This document shows, piece by piece, positions 23,451 through 25,727 of a stretch of DNA of 64,000 nucleotides. Made by a program: the position numbers and the translations under genes. Each line of letters begins with the position of its first letter. The first letter of the stretch is position 1. Source of the DNA: Armatimonas rosea. Its GTDB lineage: Bacteria > Armatimonadota > Armatimonadia > Armatimonadales > Armatimonadaceae. A model generated the notes under the pieces. That model was not told the origin of the DNA. It was given only the letters and a program-made list of their open reading frames with translations, and did no database searches. The stretch is taken from contig NZ_JACHGW010000001.1 of assembly GCF_014202505.1 (NCBI RefSeq), positions 744,001 to 808,000 on the forward strand, in the 5' to 3' direction.

Positions 23451-24215
23451 CTACGGAGGGATCTGTTCCAGGAGCTTTCGGGCGTTCTGCTGGATGCGCT
23501 CGGGACAGCCGGGAGTCTTGAGCGCGGCGTTGAGCTCTGCCCGCGTCCCCTTGGCATTGCGCTCGCCCATGAAGCAAAACGCGAGCCCAAAGTGCGCGTA
23601 GGCCTTGTCTCGTCCCTCGGTCGCCACCGTGAGGGCTTTCTGGAGCCAGGCACGCGCCTTGGTGGCACTCTGCTTGCGGATGTAGAGCGAGCCGAGCGCG
23701 TTGTAGGCCGCGGCACACTTGCCACTCTGCGGAGCCTTCGCCACAAGCCCTGCCACCCAAAGCGCCTTGGGCTCGTTGCCCTGGTCCGCGAAGCGCTGCG
23801 CCAGGTCGGTCGCCAGAGCGAGATCGCCCGGGGTGCGCTTGAGCTTGGCCTCCAGAGCGGGCTGCTCTTTGTAGGTCTTGAGTGCCTCGCTCCCGACCGT
23901 GATAAAGCCTTGCGCGGGCAGAAAGCCCGGCATGCGGCCCCACTCGCCCCCCTCCGCGTCTAGATAGAGCACGGTGGGGAAGCCCGTGACTCCGTACTTC
24001 TTGGCGAGCGCACGCCCTTCGTACTCGGCGTTTACCTTGACTGCGACCAACTGGCCACAGAACTGGACAACCTTGGGATCAGGATAGACCTCGGCCTCCA
24101 GCTTCTTACAGTACCCTCACCAGTCGGTGTAGAAGTCCACCAACAAGAGCTTCTTGCTGGCACGGGCACTCTTGACCGCGGCCTCGTAGGATCTCATCCA
24201 GGCAATCTTTGGCAT
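23451..24215 (-). CDS. Thioredoxin-like protein with in-frame UGA at the redox Cys (candidate selenoprotein)
   Basis: Read from the ATG at 24213-24215, the frame encodes MPKIAWMRSYEAAVKSARAS, then KKLLLVDFYTDW, then UGA (codon 33, 24117-24119), then GYCKKLEAEVY. It continues without interruption through KKYGVTGFPTVLYLDAEG (cis-Pro) to a TPR-like helical C-terminus (AAYNALGSLYIRKQSATKAR) and a TAG at 23451. Length with UGA read through is 254 aa. The UGA stands exactly where thioredoxins have the nucleophilic Cys of WCxxC, giving U-G-Y-C, which is the classical signature of a selenocysteine protein. All other fold residues are intact. If UGA were a plain stop, the protein would end at 32 aa and the rest would have to start internally at 24050. 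Sequencing error or recent decay are the alternatives. Confidence 0.75.
24081..24119 (-). promoter_or_regulatory. Candidate bacterial SECIS hairpin after the UGA codon
   Basis: Immediately 3' of the UGA the transcript can pair AGGGUA (24112-24117) with UAUCCU (24081-24086). Inside this, GC/GC closes a UGGAG loop about 17-21 nt after UGA. Bacterial SECIS elements lie in this position and carry G in the apical loop. This is a hand-drawn fold with a weak inner stem, and a minimum-energy calculation or SECIS search is needed. Confidence 0.35.
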
Positions 24216-24238: not shown

Positions 24239-24368
24239 CCGGGCAATAAATTACCCGGCAGGGGGAAAGGAGCGTCCCGGGGACGCAGGAGCTTTAGGGC
24301 TCTGCGCGTCCCCGGGACGCTCCCTCAGCCGCAGGCGGGTATTTCCAATGCCCGCCAACATTGCCCGG
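24239..24368. repeat. Compound hairpin repeat, copy 2
   Basis: Parts in order: ccgggcaataaattacccgg hairpin, purine spacer, large stem ggagcgtcccggggacgcag / gcgtccccgggacgctcc, then ggcgggtatttccaatgcccgcc. It lies between the thioredoxin-like gene start and the macro-domain gene stop, and is inverted with respect to copy 3 on the other side of that gene. Confidence 0.85.
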
Positions 24369-24845
24369 CTAAAAATCATAGACCGTGACCGCGATGTCTT
24401 TTGTGCAGAGCACTTTTTGCAGGAGCGGCTCGACCCGGCTCCAGTCGCCGCCTGCGAGGCCACAGCCAATGCGCGGCAGGTGGATCGAGGCACCGCGCTC
24501 CAGGGCCTTCTCCGCCACTTTTTCTAGTCCCTCGGAGAGCGCGTCGTAGCGGATGGGGACGCCCTTACTGCCGGTCTTGATACCCCTCTGCCCGATCAGA
24601 TTCGCCACCCAGAGCTCGCCGGGCTTTACCTCCACAAACTGTACCGCCCCGAGGCCAAAGTCGTTGTGGGCGCGCTCCGCGTGCCACTTACGGTAGGCCC
24701 GCTCGGGCTCCTGCCAGCGCCGGGAGAGCGCCCGCACAAACCCCTTGCCCCAGGCTCCGAGATCGTTGCAGCAGTGGCAGACAATCTTGGCCCCTGCGGC
24801 TTGCGGGACGGTGGCATCGCCCTTGAGATAGGTTATTTGCGTCAT
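24369..24845 (-). CDS. Macro-domain protein (ADP-ribose binding/hydrolysing)
   Basis: A 158 aa single-domain protein of the Poa1p/TARG1-like macro group, which binds ADP-ribose and may remove it from proteins, DNA or ADP-ribose-1''-phosphate. Visible motifs are GDAT (residues 9-12), HCCNDLGAWGKGF for the adenine and distal-ribose pocket, and PRIGCGLAGGDW for the phosphate loop. The N-terminus MTQITYLKGDA is standard. The gene stands alone between two inverted copies of the compound hairpin repeat. With the ADP-ribosylglycohydrolase at 3217, this is the second ADP-ribose-processing gene in the window. Confidence 0.93.
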   Translation of the reverse strand: MTQITYLKGDATVPQAAGAKIVCHCCNDLGAWGKGFVRALSRRWQEPERAYRKWHAERAHNDFGLGAVQFVEVKPGELWVANLIGQRGIKTGSKGVPIRYDALSEGLEKVAEKALERGASIHLPRIGCGLAGGDWSRVEPLLQKVLCTKDIAVTVYDF

Positions 24846-24897
24846 GGTAACACTTTATCGCAAGAGTGATGCCTTTTGCTAAAATCTTGTGCGATGA

Positions 24898-25019
24898 AGC
24901 CGGGCATTGGAAATACCCGGCTGACGTTTTTGGGAGCGTCCCGAGGACGCACAGAGCACAGCGTTCCTGCGTCCCCGGGACGCTCCTTTCCCCCTGCCGG
25001 GTATTTCCAATGCCCGGCT
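24898..25019. repeat. Compound hairpin repeat, copy 3 (inverted)
   Basis: Hairpin ccgggcattggaaatacccgg, large stem gggagcgtcccgaggacgc / gcgtccccgggacgctcc, spacer tttccccctg, hairpin ccgggtatttccaatgcccgg. Its reverse complement matches copy 2 part by part, including ggcagggggaaaggagcgtc. It abuts the stop codon of the DnaB-like gene. Confidence 0.85.
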
Positions 25020-25727
25020 CTAATGCCCGCACTCCAGCCGTCCCTCGTTGAGGAAGCAGAGTCGATCAAAGAGGCCAAGGTCGAGAGGGTTGGGCAAGCG
25101 GATATTCTCAACCCCCGGCAGGGGCTGCGCCGCCGGGTCGTAGCGGCGCTCGATCTGAGAGAGGCACAGGACGATACAGTGGCACTCTTGGGCGAGGCGC
25201 TTGAGCTGCGGAACCTGGTGCATCAGAGGAGGGTTCTCGCGCTTGAGGTCCAGCACCTGGAGGTAGTCCACGATCACCAGGCTCTGCGGCGGCTCGGAGG
25301 CAAGCCGGGCGACAATATAGTCCGCACAGATCTGGTCGGAGTCGTCCACGAGAAACCGATCCGCGAAGCGGGCCTGCTCCGCACCCAGCGCCGTGAAGCA
25401 GGCCGCGACCTCGGCGGGGGTGAAGTCAAGAGTGAAGAATGCTGCACGGCCGCCGCGCTGCATGAGCAGGAGAGCCAGCTCGATACTGAGGCGCGTCTTG
25501 CCTTGCCCCCGGCGCGACCCCAGCAGGACCAGCTCCCCCGGGCGTAGCTGCTCTAGGAGCGTGAGGGCGTTGCTCTTCGATGCTGTCTTGGCGGAGAGCA
25601 GGCTCCACGCGGCAAACCCTTCGCGCTGGGCGATCTGGTCCAGCGCTTGGTGGAGTGGGATGTTTTGGTCGCGGGCGAGGGCCTTGGCCTGCTGCTTGAG
25701 GACCGGAATCGGGGCAGAGAGTGTCAT
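25020..25727 (-). CDS. DnaB-C-like (RecA-fold) ATPase
   Basis: A 235 aa protein with an N-terminal helical segment (PVLKQQAKALARDQNIPLHQ, then ALDQIAQREGFAAWSLL) that is often found before DnaB-like domains. The ATPase core has Walker A GSRRGQGKT, an FFTLDFTPAEV block and Walker B SLVIVDYLQVL, followed by LKRLAQECHCIVLCLSQ as in replicative helicases. It lacks the DnaB N-terminal primase-interacting domain, so it is not the main replicative helicase. Its role is unknown; an accessory, phage or mobile-element origin is possible. It is followed by repeat copy 3. Confidence 0.8.
   Translation of the reverse strand: MTLSAPIPVLKQQAKALARDQNIPLHQALDQIAQREGFAAWSLLSAKTASKSNALTLLEQLRPGELVLLGSRRGQGKTRLSIELALLLMQRGGRAAFFTLDFTPAEVAACFTALGAEQARFADRFLVDDSDQICADYIVARLASEPPQSLVIVDYLQVLDLKRENPPLMHQVPQLKRLAQECHCIVLCLSQIERRYDPAAQPLPGVENIRLPNPLDLGLFDRLCFLNEGRLECGH

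Follow-up and report, generated by a model that had tools for sequence, protein, structure and literature searches.

A thioredoxin–TPR gene of Armatimonadota with a conserved in-frame UGA that almost certainly encodes selenocysteine

Selenoprotein catalogs of 2022 and 2026 list a predicted PF13098 UxxC family, in which a thioredoxin-like domain carries selenocysteine (Sec) (PMC9312934, PMC13188914). A second known Sec site is the UxxK motif of SelD selenoproteins (PMC9312934). The canonical bacterial SECIS element (bSECIS) has a loop of 3 to 9 nt with a G in the first 2 positions, a distance of 16 to 37 nt from the UGA, an upper stem of 4 to 16 bp, and an energy of −7.5 or lower (PMC13188914, Fig. 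2); some bSECIS elements fall outside this model (PMC13188914). Here, we describe a gene in a stretch of 64,000 nucleotides from Armatimonas rosea (the window; positions 744,001 to 808,000 of contig NZ_JACHGW010000001.1), which joins a thioredoxin (Trx) domain to a tetratricopeptide repeat (TPR)-like tail and is interrupted by a single UGA. Judged from the sequence, this UGA is almost certainly a Sec codon and not a stop. We consider the whole explanation highly probable: a Trx–TPR selenoprotein with an oxidoreductase role, its Sec inserted through SelD, SelA, SelB, and an RNA hairpin.

The gene lies on the minus strand (Table 1). Its frame begins with an ATG at 24215 and holds one in-frame TGA at 24119-24117 (codon 33), from which 221 sense codons lead to the terminal TAG at 23453-23451. 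A first-pass annotation of the window had described the frame as open from 24215 to 23451 except for this one stop, and had placed the UGA at the first Cys of W-C-x-x-C, giving W-U-G-Y-C. Both descriptions are borne out by the translation, where the UGA stands for the first Cys of WCxxC in the context DFYTDW-U-GYCKKL.

Table 1. Features of the Trx–TPR gene, in window coordinates
Feature	Position	Strand	Remarks
Selenoprotein gene (predicted)	23451..24215	-	254 residues with U33 read through, then the stop
In-frame UGA (putative Sec codon) in place of the nucleophilic Cys, the first of W-C-x-x-C	24117..24119	-	17 genes from 16 genomes have TGA; the other homologs have Cys
Putative resolving Cys, C36 of UGYC	24108..24110	-	Invariant across the 12-sequence alignment
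Thioredoxin-fold domain (Thioredoxin_2)	23886..24215	-	Nearest folds: DsbD C-terminal domain, DsbH
Helical TPR-like tail	23454..23882	-	Weak Pfam TPR match, AlphaFold model, structural alignment
Candidate SECIS hairpin	24061..24103	-	Outer helix AGCUGGAG/UGUCCAGUU, 24103-24096 with 24068-24061
Candidate SECIS inner helix	24090-24087 with 24072-24069	-	Same hairpin

With the UGA read as a residue, Pfam Thioredoxin_2 (PF13098) matches at 57.7 bits (cutoff 27), so the protein combines PF13098 with UxxC; the Pfam TPR match is weak (21.6 bits, below the cutoff of 30.1). In the AlphaFold model, built from 12 homologs with a mean pLDDT of 94, a thioredoxin fold takes up the first 110 or so residues and is followed by 8 helices that pair in the manner of TPRs. 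In structural alignments, thioredoxins, DsbH, and the C-terminal domain of DsbD match its N-terminal part (Z 14 to 17), and TPR domains match its tail; for HOP TPR2A, the alignment covers 119 residues (Z 15.3, rmsd 2.5). On the strength of this model, a role as thiol-disulfide oxidoreductase, either reductase or isomerase, is the most likely one, and the TPR tail suggests that a partner or client is bound.

The N-terminus varies across the family. Most relatives carry a hydrophobic, signal-peptide-like leader. In the window gene and its same-genus ortholog (L002 and L003), an in-frame stop stands just upstream of the ATG (in the window gene, a TAG 4 codons 5′ of it), and neither has a leader; no signal peptide is found in the species of the window gene. 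Since the leader is absent in this genus and present in most relatives, the site of action of the Trx–TPR protein has probably changed in this genus.

Domain order and location bear on a more specific reading, in which the protein would work as a CnoX/YbbN-like chaperedoxin: the TPR tail would hold clients, Sec33 would reduce them, and clients would be passed to GroEL. We regard this analogy as doubtful. YbbN of Salmonella and of E. coli (3qdn, 3qou) are among the best Foldseek matches and share with the model the order of a Trx domain at the N-terminus and a TPR domain at the C-terminus, Caulobacter CnoX is a Trx–TPR reductase and holdase (PMC6282202), and the lack of a signal peptide in this genus fits a CnoX-like protein. 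However, the YbbN match has a TM of about 0.3 and an rmsd of about 21, indicating that the domains are placed differently; the YbbN-type TPR_20 domain (PF14561) has no match in the window protein and a weak one in 2 of 12 relatives; most relatives, with their leader, would be exported, unlike CnoX; and the thioredoxin domain is nearer to DsbD and DsbH. The fullest form of the idea is likewise improbable in our estimate: a Sec-dependent chaperedoxin, coupling selenol redox chemistry to client binding in a Trx–TPR protein, with a SECIS outside the published bacterial model (a long bipartite stem, its apical loop past the usual distance), in a phylum without a described selenoproteome.

The case for Sec, in whichever functional setting, begins with the homologs. 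In a first set of 60 relatives, full-length homologs with TGA at the exact codon occur in 3 other genomes (L005, L006, L007), and the remaining homologs have Cys, among them the same-genus ortholog (74% identity), where the codon is TGC. A profile search over 291 Armatimonadota genomes, with inspection of every match that held an internal TGA, gave 9 full-length Trx–TPR UGA genes (L002, which is the window gene, L005, L006, L007, L050, L059, L061, L063, and L148) and 6 shorter UGA thioredoxin-like genes. An independent DNA pattern that allowed TAA, TAG, TGA, or TGG at the codon matched 17 times, in 16 of the 291 genomes. All 17 matches are TGA and none is TAA or TAG; the reversed pattern, run as a control, had no match in the 291 genomes. 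UGA thus stands where homologs carry Cys or Sec, and the comparison of Cys with UGA at codon 33 that the first-pass annotation had proposed finds one or the other. UGA forms of the gene are used by several lineages of Armatimonadota. SelB occurs in every one of the 16 genomes with a UGA gene and in 197 of the 291 as a whole; the hypergeometric p of 0.0016 is made optimistic by relatedness among the genomes.

The shorter UGA thioredoxin-like proteins (L151, L152, L157, L158, L160, L161, L198, and L199) are without the TPR tail. In the source genome, the short motif matches a second time at C1:980537; this was discarded as a chance hit, its frame being full of stops. In plasmid records, a protein search returned only distant thioredoxins and DsbD.

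Could the UGA be a true stop, the downstream frame being the relic of a gene lost to a nonsense mutation? The broken frame is what such a pseudogene would look like. Against this stand the restriction of 16 genomes to TGA at this codon, never TAA or TAG, the conserved hairpin described below, and the substitution pattern. Relative to the same-genus Cys ortholog, Nei–Gojobori dN/dS amounts to 0.128 for the codons that precede the UGA and to 0.075 for those that follow, a rough ratio given that dS, at 2.5, is near saturation (pN 0.167 versus pS 0.724). Purifying selection on the codons past the UGA is strong. We therefore hold a relic to be extremely unlikely and a pseudogene to be excluded in practice; the earlier argument that chance would rarely hit precisely this codon is sustained by the 17 homologous genes, all with TGA there, and by the low downstream ratio.

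The hairpin provides a second line of evidence. RNAalifold, applied to the 9 full-length UGA genes, predicts a helix of +16 to +24 with +50 to +58 (UGA being 0 to 2), offset by one codon in L059. Of its 9 pairs, a mean of 8.0 form in the full-length UGA genes versus 4.4 in 34 Cys homologs (Mann–Whitney p 4e-5). The eight-pair outer helix was assessed on 9 UGA sequences, 8 full-length ones and L152, which was added after inspection. It is 97.2% paired over this set, and at 3 pairs both bases have changed (at one of them, G-C to C-G and U-A). The whole structure is 92.6% paired, and sliding it by 1 to 3 columns lowers pairing to 40% or less. In shuffles of synonymous codons within each gene, the outer pairs number 55.7 ± 2.7 versus 70 of 72 observed, and 0 of 2,000 shuffles reach that count. 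Folding energy falls within the lowest 5% of the shuffled values for 9 of 9 sequences, the window gene being at the weak end and only modestly better than its shuffles (about 5%). An RNA hairpin just 3′ of the UGA is thus conserved, with the caveat that the sequences used to fix its register were also those on which it was later tested. The Cys homologs have a slight excess of the same pairs (89 of 128 versus 82 ± 3.4 in shuffles).

This hairpin is not the one first proposed. The stem AGGGUA/UAUCCU, drawn in the first-pass annotation, takes in the final A of the UGA, is absent from every predicted fold of the window sequence, and is not conserved; we rejected it, and the longer hairpin of Table 1 is conserved instead. 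Nor does the window gene fit the canonical bSECIS model, with a best value of −2.1 kcal/mol. The canonical scan passes 0 of 9 full-length UGA genes, 1 of 15 UGA genes of all kinds, and 5 of 34 Cys genes; since it passes UGA and Cys genes alike, it does not discriminate between them. Among the shorter UGA thioredoxins, the long helix is present in L152, partly present in L160 and L161, and reduced to 4 and 3 of 8 outer pairs in L198 and L199, an unevenness that marks it as belonging mainly to the Trx–TPR branch. L151, L157, and L158 have short hairpins instead, found by eye, with loops AGGA or CGUGAA; these seem closer to the canonical bSECIS.

A sequencing or assembly error that turned TGC or TGT into TGA, a suspicion to which the TGC of the same-genus ortholog lends some substance, is barely credible: the TGA recurs at the same codon in independent assemblies of 16 genomes, and the helix is intact in the window gene, whereas the same-genus Cys gene has lost 2 inner pairs (CUCGAU/UGCAG versus CUGGA/UCCAG).

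Sec insertion depends on machinery that lies outside the window. The source genome (6.3 Mb, 19 contigs, 98% complete) encodes SelA (437.8 bits), SelB (a frame open over 735 codons, its SelB wing domain scoring 58.7 bits), SelD (372 bits), and a tRNA-Sec (61.6 bits versus a gathering score of 47), which ARAGORN reports as tRNA-SeC with anticodon tca. The search for selA, selB, selD, and tRNA-Sec(UCA) elsewhere in the genome, suggested at first pass, thus yields the complete set. In the selD gene (L041, C4:581092-582057, minus strand), too, a single TGA interrupts the frame; it falls in the N-terminal active-site loop (RCAG-U-ASK), at the UxxK site known from SelD selenoproteins (PMC9312934), and is followed by a compact hairpin with the loop GUC. 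In the formate dehydrogenase alpha-like genes of the same genome (including L190, C9:24274-26316), no in-frame UGA is found; Sec use here therefore does not hinge on a formate dehydrogenase with UGA.

The same observations weigh on the idea that UGA is generally reassigned in this organism, or read through as Trp or Cys, with no selenium involved. The frame would be open whatever residue is placed at the UGA, as this idea predicts. Among the genes examined, however, UGA is restricted to the motif Cys and the SelD active-site loop, a complete Sec pathway is present, and neighboring frames end normally under table 11, leaving reassignment or readthrough with a minute chance of being right.

We infer that Sec is inserted at the UGA, by the following route. 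SelD would supply selenophosphate, SelA would convert Ser-tRNA-Sec into Sec-tRNA-Sec, and SelB would carry Sec-tRNA-Sec to the UGA, aided by the RNA hairpin just 3′ of it. The predicted product of 254 residues would comprise a DsbD/DsbH-like thioredoxin domain with the W-U-G-Y-C site and a TPR-like tail. Sec33 would attack substrate disulfides, and Cys36 would resolve the intermediate. A Sec nucleophile and a resolving Cys in these positions follow established thioredoxin-fold chemistry. The TPR tail may hold partners or client proteins. The protein would act in the cytosol in this genus and, by virtue of the signal-like leader, would be exported in most relatives.

Sec and Cys appear to have been exchanged repeatedly at this position. 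In a tree of 49 full-length homologs, the 9 Sec forms are scattered; 6 or more changes are needed to explain them, and well-supported branches force 2 of these. The window gene and the same-genus Cys ortholog are sisters (100/91), and gltB lies downstream of both (92% identity).

The surroundings of the gene contain repeats. The minus-strand gene at 24369-24845, which we take to be macro-domain-like, is flanked by intergenic stretches with inverted repeats (window 24249-25029). A 42-nt arm pairs 24249-24290 with 24965-25006 (98%), a 24-nt arm pairs 24898-24921 with 24996-25019 (100%), and copies of GGGTATTTCCAATGCCCG occur in the same stretches. These repeats may be dispersed palindromic elements.

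The findings matter in several ways. Standard annotation would truncate or break the gene at the UGA, and a conserved redox protein has therefore probably been missed, or called a pseudogene, in many Armatimonadota. The Trx–TPR architecture would be an addition to the prokaryotic selenoproteome. The repeated exchange of Sec and Cys at one catalytic position is a natural experiment, and the noncanonical, conserved hairpin offers a test case for the breadth of SelB recognition.

How, then, does the protein relate to known systems? In the part of the open-access literature accessible to us, no paper appears to treat Armatimonadota selenoproteins; an earlier description may exist elsewhere. Among NCBIfam selenoprotein models, none reaches its own cutoff for the window protein. 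The top match, the rhodanese/DsbD fusion-like TsoB (NF045694), scores 61.2 bits through a common DsbD-like thioredoxin domain, far short of its cutoff of 805 bits; about 110 of 572 positions match, and its listed motif is UxxxxU. The DsbD C-terminal domain and DsbH share the thioredoxin fold at 26% to 30% identity over about 115 residues, but the window protein is without a membrane or N-terminal domain, has Sec in place of Cys, and adds the TPR tail. CnoX/YbbN has the same order of thioredoxin domain and TPR repeats and differs in domain placement, in a TPR_20 domain for which the window protein gives no match, and, for CnoX, in a CxxC or SxxC active site where the window protein would have Sec. 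A further close system is the PF13098 UxxC thiol:disulfide interchange selenoprotein (Table 1 in both PMC13188914 and PMC9312934), with the same Thioredoxin_2 domain and Sec first in UxxC; its description, with no mention of a TPR tail or of Armatimonadota, sets it apart. The first-pass remarks that Sec at the nucleophilic position is known in thioredoxin-like proteins, and that its fusion to a TPR-like tail would be unusual, agree with these catalogs, which list the UxxC family and in neither case the fusion (PMC13188914, PMC9312934). The UxxC thioredoxin-like kind is thus already known, and what lies outside the catalogs is the fusion to TPRs, the atypical form of the hairpin, and the presence of such a protein in Armatimonadota (PMC9312934, PMC13188914).
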